A stretch of 64,000 nucleotides of DNA from Tetradesmus obliquus (Eukaryota > Chlorophyta > Chlorophyceae > Sphaeropleales > Scenedesmaceae), in NCBI GenBank assembly GCA_030272155.1, contig CP126193.1:6572001-6636000 (forward strand), read 5' to 3'. A program made the translations under genes and the position numbers. Below are positions 11,580 through 53,319 of this stretch, piece by piece. Below the pieces are notes generated by a model. The model was not told where the DNA came from and made no database searches. It saw only the letters and a list, made by a program, of their open reading frames with translations. Every line of letters begins with the position of its first letter. Within the stretch, counting starts at the first letter, position 1.

Positions 11580-13690
11580 ATGCTGCAGCTCCGCACTACA
11601 GCAGTTTCTGCACGTAGCAGAGCTTTGAGAACCTTTAACCCATCAACGTTTGTTTATGCGCGTGTGTGTGCGCCTGTAGGTGCCCTGTCAGCAGCAGTTG
11701 AAGTCCAAGGTGGCCTCCCGAGGCTCTTTGGCAAGGAGCCTGGCCCTGCAGGCCCAGCGAGGAGATGAAATAACGCCTGCAGTGGTAGCTACAGAGATAC
11801 ACAAAGCTGGTAAGGTGCTGGCAGAGGTCCTGCTGTTTCTGGTGTGCTTTGCACTGATCACAAGTGCTGTTGCTACTGTCAGCGACACTGTGGCCACTGC
11901 TGCTGCACCTCGCAATGTGCACAAAGTTGATGCAGTGATGTTAAGGACAGTGTAGAAACAAGTCACAGCTCCAGGAAAGCGCCTACCCTCACTGCCTCCA
12001 GGCAAACGGCTATCCTCATTGCCTGCTGCTGCCGCTGCTGCACTGCCTTGCTGCCCCAGGCACCCTGCCCAGCCCCCCTCCCAGTGCTGTGTCACGCCAG
12101 CTGCAGGTGACCATCAGCCAGAGAGCAGTGGCTGATGTGGAGGTGCTGCCAGGGCTCACGACTGTGGGGCAGCTGAGGGAGCAGGTGGCGGAGCTGCTGG
12201 GCACAGACAGCACACAGGTGAGCACAGAAGTAACATGGCACAAGGAGGATGTGCAAATTCGTTCTTATACAAGGGTAACACTTGTCTCCAGGCTCACATT
12301 GAGTGCATGGCGTTAGGGTGACCTTGCGCTGGATCCTGTGGAGATGGCTCAGCTGCGTTTATGCACCATGGCACAATGTTTGTTTGCTGCCCCGTACGCT
12401 GCTGCTGTTCATCATGGTGCCTTTCGCTGCTACTTCAAAAACTGCTTGTGCTTCTGCTCTGCCGCTGCTGCTGCTGCTGCTGCTGCTGCTGCTGCTATTT
12501 ACGCATCGATGTGCTGGCGCATCTTGCCACCAGGTGCGGCTGTCGTAGCCGGCAAGGAGCTGGCGGCCTCCCTTGATGGCTCTGCGCTGGAGCTGGCACC
12601 TGGCGTTGACGTGCTGGCAGTGATGCAGCGTGTCAACATCACTGTCACCCTGGAGGACGAGCAGGACGACGCAGTGAGCGATACACAGTGGGGGTATCTA
12701 TACTTCATGGAGGAAGCAGCAGCTGCTGCAGCAGCGGCAGCCGCAGCGCCAACGCGCACCAGGCGCAAGCAGGAAGAGGAGGCCCCAGCGTCTAAGCTGG
12801 CATGGGCAGCCGCCTCTGCTGATGTGTCGCCTGACAGGCGGCGCGCAGCAGCAAAGCAGGTGCCGGGCAGTAGGCCGGGCGCTAGCGCGCAGGTGCAGCT
12901 GGCGAGGCAGTTCCGTGACCTGCTGCGGCACCCCATCTCTGGCATTGATGCAGCACCCAGCGACGATGACCTGTTCACCTGGAACGTGAAGGTGGGTGGC
13001 AATGGGCAGCGTGCTGCAGGCCCTGCACATGATGTGCAGCTGAGCCGTGCGTGTACAGCACACAGGCAGCTCATGTCTTTGTGAGGAGGTGATTTTGCGG
13101 GCAGCTCACACCACAGCAATGCGCCGATGATGGAAACAGTAATGTCTTTAGCAGGCAGGCCGTACAACGTGCCGGGAGACCCTTCTACATGCTGCAACAT
13201 AATGATCGCTCTCAAGTTGCAGGAGTCCAGGATGTGCTGACGTGCTGGACACCTCTTGCACGCACTGTTTCAGCACAAGATAAGGTGACTTCACTGTTGC
13301 TCCTGATGCTGTTGCTTTTGCTGCTGCTGCTGTAGCGCCTGGCTCACGCAGCTGGCAGGCCCTGAGGGCAGCCCCTACGAGGGCGGCTGGTTTGATGTCA
13401 AGCTGGAATTCACCCAGGGCTTCCCAGGGCATCAGCCACAAGCAACATTCATCACCAAGATCTGGCACCCGAATGTGCATTACCCTGGCAGGGACGTGTG
13501 CTTAGTGCTGGGTGGCATGTATGAACAAGGTGTGTGCAGCGTGGCGTGTGTGCTGGTGGGGCTGCAGGTGCTGCTGGCACACCCCAACCCGGAAAGCCCG
13601 GTAAATGGCGAGTGCGCGGAGCAGATGTTGCAGGAGCCGCAGCAGTATCACGCACAGGCAAAGTGCTGGACGCTGCGGCATGCGACGTGA
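11580..13690 (+). pseudogene. UBL-E2 fusion, copy 1 (catalytic Cys kept, frame lesions)
   Basis: First of four related loci. Family order: presequence-like N-terminus (MLQLRTTA..., Arg/Ser-rich), ubiquitin-like fold (VEVLPGLTTVGQLREQVAELLG, then AGKEL), Ala-rich linker, and E2 domain (DDDLFTWNVK, GPEGSPYEGGWFDVKLEF, IWHPNV, VCSVACVLVGLQVLLAHPNP). Exons: 11580-11809, 12060-12217, 12534-12991 and 13352-13690. The position matching the E2 active-site Cys is Cys (GRDVCLVLGG). Compared with its sisters, exon 1 is 2 nt short near 11660 and exon 3 is 1 nt short near 12555, where TATGCC has become TAGCC. As read, the full fusion frame is therefore closed, although the E2 exon alone is open. Either a decaying gene or assembly indels would explain this. 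Intron 2 ends in a CTG run. Family assignment of the E2 and ubiquitin folds is from motif match, without a search. Confidence 0.75.
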
Positions 13691-14342
13691 TGTGCGGCAC
13701 AATGCTGAAGGAGCAGTGCTGGCGTCTTTGGTGTGCATGCTGAGTGTGGAGAGCATCAATCTTATGCGCTTCTCAACATCTTGCTCATCGTGCCTGCAGC
13801 GGCTGCAATGGTGTGAGACATGTTCGTGGATGGCGTGGCAGCAGAGGACGCTGCCTATGTAGCTATGTATGTTGGAACAGAGCCGCAGATGTGATGAGGT
13901 GCTAGCAGCTGCTGCCATGATTCCAATTAATACCCTGTGCCATGCTGATATGTCAGCAAGCACACGTCTCGTGTATATGTTTTGCGTGAGTATCTACAGG
14001 CATTTGAGGGCGTAGGCACGAAGCCGGACGCAAGAGTACGTCATGTGTTGCGCCCAGGGCAGCTGCGGCCTCGACTTGTAGGAGCAGTGCTGGCAGCCCA
14101 AGGTGGTTCATTGTTTTCACTGCTGAGTTCATCTTGGCACCTGCTAGAGTGTCTTGAAGTGTTTTGCCTGCTTCGTGTCTGTTGGTGGCGGAATTGCTTC
14201 CACGGTGCTGCATGTAAAAATGCCATGTGCCGATGGGTCTCATGGACAAACCTCCACCTGAACAGTACGGTACAGGTATGGTGAACGGCGTGAGGAGAAT
14301 CAGTAACAACCAAGGCACTGTTAACTTAAACTGATTAACAGC
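13691..14342. other. Intergenic spacer between UBL-E2 copies 1 and 2
   Basis: 3' UTR of copy 1 plus spacer. A TGTAA chlorophyte-type polyadenylation signal candidate lies at about 14213. No other gene is supported. Confidence 0.5.
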
Positions 14343-51196: not shown

Positions 51197-53319
51197 TCAC
51201 ATGGCATATTTCTGTGTCCAGCTCCTCGCCTTGGCTTCATACTCTTGCGGCTGCTTCCGCATCTGCTGTGCACAGTAGTAATTGACTGGACTGTCAGGGT
51301 TGGGGTTTGCCAGCAGCGTCTGCAGCCCTACCAGCACGCACGCCACGCTGCACACATCTTGTCTGAAGCCCCCGCCCAGCCACATGTACACATAGCCAAG
51401 GGGAGGTTGATCCACATTCGGGTGCCAGATCTCTGTCTTGAAGTACGCGCGCGGCTGCTTTCCTGGGAAGTCCGGTGTGAACTGCAGCCTCACGTCGAAC
51501 CAGCCGCCCTCATAGGGGCTGCCCTCAGGGCCTACCAGCTGCACAGCAGCCAGGGGCAGCCAGAATGCCAGCAACGGCAGCAACAGCAGGAGCAGCAATA
51601 GGCATGGATTTGCCGATGGTCGATGTGGTGGAGGCAGTATGTGGCAACCAGCAAGTTTGCTGCGTACAGCAGCCCTGTCTTTGCACAACCTGTGTGAACT
51701 CAATTTGCAAGTGACCATTCAAGGATGTTGGCGGTTGCCAGTCACGTGCTACGCAATGCATCATGCATGGTTGCCAGTGGGCATCATCACTGTGATAGCA
51801 CTATCTGCACGGTCAGCACTTCAACTGCTGGTCAAGTCCGCCATGAAGCTGTTCAAACTGCCAAGCTGGTTTGTGAACTGACTGTGCATGGGCACAACAC
51901 AGAATGTGGTGTTTGAGACACGCTACTGTACTGCCACAAGGTGTGGCTGCGTCCCACTCTGCATCAAGCTGCTTCATGCCACCCACCCGCACGTTCCAGG
52001 TGAACAGGTCATCGTCACTAGGTGCTGCATCAACTCCAGGGATGGGGTGCCGCAGCAGGTCACGGAACTGCCTCGCCAGCTGCAGCTCAGCGCTGCAACC
52101 CTGCCTGCTGCCAGGCACCTGCTTCACTGCTGCACGCCGCCTGTCAGGCACAACATCAGCCGAGGAAGCTGCCCATGCCAGCTTGGACACTGGGGGCTCC
52201 TCTTCCTGCCTGCGCCTGGTGCGCCTTGGTGGTGCGGCAGCCGCTGCGGCCGCTGCTGCTGCGGCTGCTTCGGCTGCGGCTGCTGCTTCTTTGGCTGCAG
52301 CTGCCTCGCGCTCTGCTGCCGCTTCAGGGCTGTCATTGGTGCGCAGCATTGCTGCCACAGCATTGATGCCTGGCTGCAGCTGCAGCAAAGAGCCATCAAT
52401 GGAGGGTGACAGCTCCTTGCCAGCATACGACAACCGCACCTGGCGGCAGGGAAACAGGCAGGCAGCAACAACAGCAGTTTGGACGGCAGTAGTACAACAG
52501 GCACCAGGAGCAACAGCAGCAAGCTTACTGGCCACTGCATGCACTAAGCCAAACCATGTTGCCAAGCTACAAAGTTGGTCCCCAGTTTGGCGACAGCCCA
52601 GGCCACCAAGGAGCGCAAACCATTGCTTGACGGTGCGCAGTTGTGCATTTACCATGCCTAAAACTGTCATGTTATAAAACCCCCACCAAGTATTCCAATT
52701 GGAAAATGAGGCTTGCACATGATGCCGTGCCTACCTGTGTGCTGTCTGTGCCCAGCAGCTCCGCCACCTGCTGCCTCAGCTGGCCCACTGTGGTCAGCCC
52801 TGGCAGCACCTCCACAGCAGCCACTGCTCCCTGGCTGCTGGTCACCTGCAGCTAGCGGGACACGGCACTGGGAGGTGGGCAGGGCAGCGTGCCTGCGGCA
52901 GCAGCAGCAGTGCACCCTTCAGAAATAGCAGGACAGCAGTCAGGCTAGCCGTTTGCCTACTCCTGCACGCCATACTGCAAGTTCATTACTGCCAGTGGCA
53001 GCAGCAGCACTTCTGATCAGTGCAAAGCAGCAGCAGCAGCAGCAGCAGCAGCAGCAGCAGCAGCAGCAGCAGCACCTCTGATGTGCGACTCACCTGATAT
53101 ATGTGCGTCTGTGTCTGCCAGCAAAGCAGCATCGCCGCCTCGCTGGGCCTGCAGGGCTGGGGCCAAGCTGCTGCATTGGGGCCCCACCTTGGACGGCAGC
53201 TGCTGCTCACAAGGCACCTCCCGACGCGCACACGGACGTGCATCTGATTTACGTGCTACACAAATGATATGTCTAGTGCTACTGCGAGCAGCACCTGCTG
53301 TGGTTTGGAATTGCAGCAT
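51197..53319 (-). pseudogene. UBL-E2 fusion, copy 4 (Tyr at catalytic position; one in-frame stop)
   Basis: Exons 53094-53319, 52735-52892 (158 nt), 51987-52439 and 51197-51538, all in phase. Presequence-like MLQFQTTAGAARSSTR, ubiquitin-like part (VAAVEVLPGLTTVGQL, VRLSYAGKELSPS), Ala-rich linker, then a good E2 domain: QLARQFRDLLRHPIPG, DDDLFTWNVR, GPEGSPYEGGWFDVRLQF, WHPNV, VCSVACVLVGLQTLLANPNP, ARSWTQKYAM. The position of the active-site Cys is Tyr (LGYVYMWLGG), as in catalytically dead E2 variants (UEV type), although the E2 fold looks otherwise complete. A single TAG at 52852-52854 replaces the Gln codon kept in copies 1 and 2 at the start of the ubiquitin fold; apart from that the frame is open for about 392 codons. 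It could be a recent pseudogene, a sequencing error, or a gene whose product is made another way. Confidence 0.7.

Follow-up and report, generated by a model that had tools for sequence, protein, structure and literature searches.

A candidate family of ubiquitin-like–E2 fusion genes in the green alga Tetradesmus obliquus

INTRODUCTION

Can a single gene supply both a ubiquitin-like (UBL) modifier and a ubiquitin-conjugating enzyme (E2), and if so, in what form? The question arises from a 64,000-nucleotide (nt) stretch of the genome of the green alga Tetradesmus obliquus (C3:6572001-6636000 in our contig numbering; hereafter, the window). Four loci within it, copies A to D, encode a divergent UBL domain, and in three of the four (A, B and D) the UBL continues into an E2 domain of the UBC fold; C has no E2. 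Ubiquitin itself is made from fusion genes, in which the known partners are ribosomal proteins along with various odd cases. An earlier note, made from the sequence of the window, had taken the four loci for an apparently undescribed UBL-E2 family behind what resembled an organelle presequence, possibly a dedicated conjugation module.

Protein searches of the alga's own genome (104.66 Mb, 17 contigs) for relatives outside the window returned two loci, L087 and L088. L088 is an open gene in which a UBL ending in Gly-Gly is followed almost at once by an E2. On our reading, at least six loci in this genome belong to one family of UBL-E2 fusions, of which the window loci are a local subfamily.

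RESULTS

An open UBL-E2 fusion outside the window

L088 lies on the minus strand in three exons (C3:2708083-2707961, 2707699-2707484 and 2707189-2706854), together 675 nt encoding 224 residues, with GT-AG introns and no internal stop. Its product begins with the UBL at Met1 and runs through VKRMQGG, SPAA and ELARQ into an E2 with HPN and a Cys in ICIS. Four residues separate the Gly-Gly from the UBC domain, and the 21 residues from the Gly-Gly to the end of the P-I-P-G-I motif are close to the spacing in a free E2. The two introns correspond in place and phase to introns 2 and 3 of the window copies. In L087 (C11:1385501-1395500), the UBL ends in MRMKGG and is joined by a poly-Ser linker to an E2 whose frame is broken near L087:6000. 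Gly-Gly thus stands directly ahead of the partner domain in L088 (then SPAA) and L087 (then poly-Ser), and not in A, B or D.

In D (52439-51987), B, L087 and L088, a single open exon runs from the second UBL half through the linker into the first portion of the E2; the exon of A does so after its gap. Because the junction is inside one open exon, the fusion does not depend on guessed splicing. The earlier note was right to place UBL and E2 on one chain; the best case, L088, lies outside the window.

The UBL is a divergent ubiquitin-like domain by sequence

Taken as single sequences, the UBLs of L088, C and D scored 14.6, 19.5 and 20.3 bits with the Pfam profile PF00240, all under its cut-off of 25.4 bits, and the four window loci were not among the 41 matches of this profile in the genome. 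A profile built from five family sequences aligned over positions 4-76 with residues 5-75 of ubiquitin in the PDB (best 60 of 245 matches). Among the matches listed, diubiquitins gave E-values of about 3e-8 and single 76-residue chains from 1e-5 (viral ubiquitin) to 0.002 (wild type); longer polyubiquitins were much lower because repeats add up. Comparison with the genome's own ubiquitin by hhalign covered 73 columns ending at G76 (86.9%, E=4e-6). These whole-domain matches bear out, at the level of sequence profiles, the divergent ubiquitin-like domain read in the earlier note. The polyubiquitin gene of the same genome is interrupted by introns, and its genes are intron-rich.

The UBL of L088 is 24% identical to ubiquitin. 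In a residue alignment whose rows were ubiquitin, L088, C, B, D and the L087 half, without A, the residues Arg42, Ala46, Gly47 and Arg72 are invariant. Three of the six loci (L088, C and L087) retain the Gly75-Gly76 pair; B and D have lost it in this alignment, as has A by its gene model. The UBL ends RFRGG in C, VKRMQGG in L088 and MRMKGG in L087, compared with R72-L-R-G-G in ubiquitin, and we think that the Arg-x-x-Gly-Gly end of the UBL of C, which the earlier note does not mention, is the most informative feature.

The E2 domain

With the Pfam profile UQ_con (cut-off 27 bits), L088 scored 111 bits (E=3.4e-32) and the chain of D behind its TAG 102 bits (E=2.5e-29); A, B, D and L087 were likewise matched in the genome scan for UBC domains. 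The E2 of L088 is 47-50% identical to those of A and D. Against the PDB (best 60 of 294 matches) it was closest to UBE2S (E=8e-27) and UBE2N (2e-26), with UBE2A, UBE2D and yeast Ubc4 close behind. Its best match in the genome outside the family is an exon of L007 (41%, 5.6e-17), which by our reading of its residues appears UBE2S-like. An AlphaFold2 model of the E2 core, made for exon 4 of A from an alignment to D alone, had a predicted local distance difference test (pLDDT) score of 43 and a predicted template modelling (pTM) score of 0.27, too poor for use.

The genome contains 41 UBC matches. We inspected 30 loci, of which 15 showed the catalytic region: five from the family and ten others. 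HPN is present in all five family E2s, and the catalytic Cys in four (L088, L087, A and B); in D it is replaced by Tyr. The strongest E2 match of the genome, L005 (C9:3015447-3015818; 100.5 bits), has WHPNV as in the family and, by its E2, is a possible further relative.

Four related loci in the window

We assembled the gene models of A to D (Table 1) manually, guided by homology and by GT-AG splice borders. A and B form a tandem pair on the plus strand, facing a tandem pair of C and D on the minus strand, with ~31.6 kb between. All copies have GT-AG introns in phases 1/0/0, and exon 2 is 158 nt in four of four. In the shared exon phases, the length of exon 2, the coordinates and the start and stop codons, our models agree with the earlier note. 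Identity between copies is 58-91% in exons versus 33-54% in introns (exon 3 of C left out): 58-65% in exon 1, 68-91% in exon 2 and, among A, B and D, 71-77% in exon 3 and 70-74% in exon 4. End to end, exon 3 of C is 17-19% identical to the others, because C ends right after the UBL and lacks most of that exon. When 141 bases of exon 2 of A were used as a DNA query against the whole genome, the four window loci were returned and no other place, the count being a lower bound. These four loci are real, mutually related genes.

Table 1. Positions of the four window copies and their exons, numbered from the first letter of the window
Copy	Feature	Position	Strand	Remarks
A	Whole copy	11580-13690	+	
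A	Exon 1	11580..11809	+	N-terminal region; 2-nt gap relative to B, C and D
A	Exon 2	12060..12217	+	First UBL half, 158 nt
A	Exon 3	12534..12991	+	Second UBL half (1-nt gap near 12548), Ala-rich linker, first E2 part
A	Exon 4	13352..13690	+	E2 core, HPN, Cys at catalytic position; ends TGA
B	Whole copy	14577-16743	+	
B	Exon 1	14577..14787	+	
B	Exon 2	15027..15184	+	First UBL half, 158 nt
B	Exon 3	15440..15882	+	Second UBL half, linker, first E2 part; 1-nt gap near 15841
B	Exon 4	16413..16743	+	E2 core, Cys kept; frame-shifting 5-nt gap near 16597
C	Whole copy	49537-48381	-	Sole window copy open throughout, 171 residues
C	Exon 1	49309..49537	-	
C	Exon 2	48788..48945	-	First UBL half, 158 nt
C	Exon 3	48381..48509	-	Second UBL half ending RFRGG, then GAARP, TGA; no E2
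D	Whole copy	53319-51197	-	
D	Exon 1	53094..53319	-	
D	Exon 2	52735..52892	-	First UBL half, 158 nt; in-frame TAG near 52854
D	Exon 3	51987..52439	-	Second UBL half, Ala-rich linker, first E2 part, one open exon
D	Exon 4	51197..51538	-	E2 core, HPN kept, Tyr at catalytic Cys position

A tblastn search downstream of C (44000-48400) with the E2 and linker of D found no convincing E2 remnant (best E=0.22). Family introns here are 201-530 nt long and carry long CTG/TGC runs (12466-12498, 15389-15427, 16298-16388, 49201-49304 and 53030-53074), which lie near the acceptor in intron 2 of A and introns 2 and 3 of B, and near the donor in intron 1 of C and D.

Lesions and selection

The earlier note's UBL-linker-E2 order stands for A, B and D, but all three copies are broken. 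The two gaps in A jointly restore the frame, with two stops between them. In B, one gap falls close to the end of exon 3 and another in exon 4, where the UBC genome scan gave two overlapping matches that differ in frame. Exon 2 of D is interrupted by a TAG in frame, at a codon that is CAG in A and B, and Tyr replaces the catalytic Cys of this copy. None of the fusion copies is intact and, judged from these lesions, they are now pseudogenes.

As a control for assembly errors, we examined HSP70 exons in the same genome. Of 79 candidates, 73 were scored, giving 65 matches; neighbouring matches were at least 55 nt apart, as judged by reading the match list, and none appeared to be split by a frameshift. 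Internal stops in five of the 65 were taken as intron sequence within the match. Since no match looks frameshift-split, general assembly noise does not account for the lesions within the reach of this control, which is the matched exons. Short alternative introns that bypass the lesions are possible on paper, the shortest being 40-59 nt (with a floor of 40). We rejected them, without proof, because the introns here are 201-530 nt and the bypasses remove coding sequence. Reassignment of TAG was rejected for D because B terminates with TAG and A and B have CAG at the aligned codon.

Pairwise ratios of non-synonymous to synonymous substitution rates (dN/dS) over exons 2-4 were 0.47 (A-B), 0.46 (A-D) and 0.35 (B-D), with bootstrap upper limits of 0.46-0.65 and shifted-frame controls of 0.91-1.5. 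The E2 cores (exon 4) gave 0.28-0.44, and exon 1 gave 0.42-0.95. By this measure A, B and D were under purifying selection for much of their history and were broken later; with ratios of 0.35-0.47, the decay is probably recent. Over the UBL exons, C gave 0.58 against A, 0.61 against B and 0.78 against D (interval 0.46-1.22), and one shifted frame gave 0.95, 0.53 and 0.49 for the pairs of C with A, B and D.

The N-terminal exon and the surroundings

The earlier note had proposed that the family sits behind an organelle presequence. A genome search found exon 1 in the four window loci only, the next match (E=0.024, contig C12) having two internal stops, and no such N-terminal exon was seen in the open L088. 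The first 40 residues of the window copies carry a net charge of +4 to +5 (those of A extend beyond its own gap). Against 900 Met-started 40-residue stretches from the six frames of the window, a background of six-frame translation and not of real proteins, charge and acid content together were not unusual (joint fraction 0.08 to 0.24). The presequence is thus not borne out.

We scanned 20 of the 101 long reading frames listed for the window for partners, and no E1, protease, ligase or JAB of a ubiquitin system was among them, nor an E1 or JAB of the type found in bacterial operons for polyUbl proteins (tandem Ubl domains; see below); the surroundings of L087 and L088 were not scanned. A dedicated conjugation module, possibly in an organelle, is thus not demonstrated, with three of three window fusions broken and no ubiquitin-system partner in the frames scanned. 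Matches above cut-off were to EGF repeats, a dehydrogenase E1 component and a metalloenzyme; AP2, serpin, KRAB and an RNA-binding domain were below it. The frame at 60646-61266 (+) has several EGF-like repeats (PF00008, E=7.4e-16). A 174-nt direct repeat, 99% identical, occurs at 28530-28703 and 33239-33412; because the second copy overlaps an AP2-like stretch (below the Pfam cut-off) of the frame 33100-35481, the AP2 exon may be recently duplicated.

In L087 the start of a half-UBL exon occurs ten times, in nine cases with CAG directly before, and between L087:2400 and 5500 these ten starts and at least two first-half UBL exons stand in tandem, possibly a nursery of alternative or decoy UBL exons. 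Tandem repeats of ~106-127 nt lie at L087:5034-5431 and in the window at 870-1112, 1441-1794, 6092-6512, 9342-9594 and 41239-41457. The L087 copies each carry a splice acceptor and the half-UBL exon start, and those at 9342-9594 an exon end and its donor. HSP70 exons on contigs C13 and C17 give consecutive matches to the same profile stretch, which may be the same kind of tandem exon-edge duplication.

DISCUSSION

Our preferred reading, held with as much belief as doubt, is that the fusion is a ubiquitin-fusion precursor that would be cut after the Gly-Gly, because its form is that of such a precursor: a UBL that has Arg72 and Gly-Gly, with an E2 following at once. The original design would have been a UBL ending Arg-x-x-Gly-Gly with a UBC-fold E2 directly after it, as read in the open L088 and in the decayed L087 with its Gly-Gly at the junction. 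A deubiquitinase would cut behind the Gly-Gly, as for a ubiquitin-ribosomal protein or FUBI-eS30, and the cut would free a modifier that an ordinary E1 could activate (its R42 and R72 positions are Arg) together with an E2 whose length would be normal. Within the subfamily of the window, Gly-Gly would have been lost from the fusions, which carry a long linker rich in Ala and one more exon at the N-terminus and would now be pseudogenes, and copy C would have become a UBL-only gene that keeps the Gly-Gly, with a five-residue tail.

Several observations weigh against a precursor of this kind. Gly-Gly is absent from three of the six loci. Ile44 of ubiquitin, part of the Leu8-Ile44-Val70 patch, is contacted by many deubiquitinases and readers, and its column holds Ala or Ser in all five family rows that were aligned. 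In E2s of the common type, the loop after the catalytic Cys, which makes contacts with E1 and E3, has a W-x-P motif. This motif is found in none of the five family E2s (B keeps the W alone), compared with seven of the seven other E2 exons of this genome that are readable through the loop (L007, L010, L011, L012, L018, L019 and L022); three more (L005, L025 and L026) apparently end at an intron ahead of it. The loop of human UBE2S, W-T-A, is also without W-x-P, which tempers the contrast. The dN/dS test does not show selection on the protein of C, one shifted frame giving comparable values. Finally, L088 is a single gene from one genome. We set its exon borders manually, and its start codon is the first in-frame ATG that follows a stop, but an upstream exon is possible. 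No relative of it was confirmed in viral and prokaryotic contig collections (1 and 14 pattern-matching stretches, respectively), which says little because the collections searched are viral and prokaryotic.

If the precursor is cut as proposed, one gene would deliver a modifier and its own E2 in equal numbers. The freed UBL might then be charged by an E1 already present and carried by the E2 released along with it, whose altered loop would no longer use ordinary RING ligases, a new pathway gained by one fusion. We regard this extension as tentative and rather unlikely.

Alternatively, the fusion may stay uncut; the UBL would then regulate or target the E2 as part of the same chain (by contact with its back side, by docking to the proteasome or by docking of the enzyme), and the E2 would work without ordinary RING ligases. 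A, B and D lack the Gly-Gly yet their E2 cores stayed at dN/dS 0.28-0.44, from which an uncut form was probably useful; this also counts against the precursor. The altered loop, with W-x-P in none of five, suggests unusual partners, and non-covalent binding of ubiquitin to the back side is described for UBE2D E2s (PMC5095918). However, L088, C and L087 keep the Gly-Gly and the Arg at the R72 column, which an uncut domain would not need, and in L088 the four residues from Gly-Gly to UBC leave little reach for a back-side contact. We consider a permanently uncut fusion possible but doubtful.

The whole family, L088 included, could instead be dying or neutral, the outcome of local duplication and exon shuffling followed by decay, with little function left. 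In four of the six loci (A, B, D and L087) the reading frame is shifted by a gap or interrupted by a stop, and C lacks the E2 altogether. The ten half-UBL exon starts of L087, the tandem exon-edge duplications elsewhere in the genome and the dN/dS of C, not clearly under its controls, fit the same picture. Against it stand the ratios well under 1 among A, B and D, and L088 itself, open, with intact motifs and intron borders and an E2 47-50% identical to those of A and D. General decay strikes us as an improbable account of the family.

A dedicated modifier system inside an organelle, targeted by the N-terminal exon, is a very remote prospect: exon 1 is common to the four window copies and positively charged, but background stretches are often alike, L088 shows no such N-terminus, the dN/dS of exon 1 reaches 0.95, and three of its four carriers are broken while the fourth has no E2. 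That faulty gene models joined two neighbouring genes, one for a UBL and one for an E2, is scarcely credible: introns were indeed placed by hand, from splice borders and homology, but the junction falls within one open exon.

Where does a precursor of UBL and E2 stand among known fusions? Ubiquitin-eL40, ubiquitin-eS31 and FUBI-eS30 have the same layout, an N-terminal UBL with Gly-Gly joined directly to an unrelated protein, and FUBI, itself a divergent UBL, is cut off its partner by USP36 (PMC8354635). In contrast to these ribosomal fusions, the partner here is an E2, the cleavage is predicted and three window copies are without Gly-Gly. In algae, ubiquitin has been described as fused to actin, NiSOD and membrane proteins, and to a zinc RING protein in Guillardia (Sibbald et al. 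2019, PMC6332867). In the same work, a targeted search in Chlamydomonas gave no extra clear ubiquitin fusions, the word 'conjugating' does not occur in the main text, and no E2 partner appears in the part covered. The UBL here differs from those algal fusions in being divergent, with the 24% identity to ubiquitin of L088. Among the PDB matches listed, the E2 of L088 is nearest to the UBE2S/UBE2N/UBE2D group, from which it differs in being fused to a UBL and in its altered loop after the Cys.

The nearest precedent is bacterial: polyUbl proteins, which some species carry as fusions to an E2-like domain described as inactive (Iyer et al. 2006, Table 1 row 6e, PMC1779556; review PMC11354881). Their operons encode tandem Ubls, with E1 and JAB genes adjacent. 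The present family, unlike these, is eukaryotic and has introns, a single UBL (in the window copies and L088; L087 has repeated UBL half-exons) and the E2 Cys in four of five loci. We met no precedent for a natural eukaryotic UBL-E2 fusion with Gly-Gly and catalytic Cys in the open-licence PMC literature, which was partly sampled. Of the earlier claim that the architecture is undescribed, then, the eukaryotic part stands within the literature searched, whereas fusions of bacterial polyUbl to an inactive E2 were already known.

An E2 partner, if true, would tie the supply of a modifier to the supply of its enzyme, and would be one route to a new ubiquitin-like pathway. The stages would then lie side by side within one genome: an open fusion (L088), a linker that still has Gly-Gly (L087), fusions without Gly-Gly (A, B and D) and a UBL-only gene (C).

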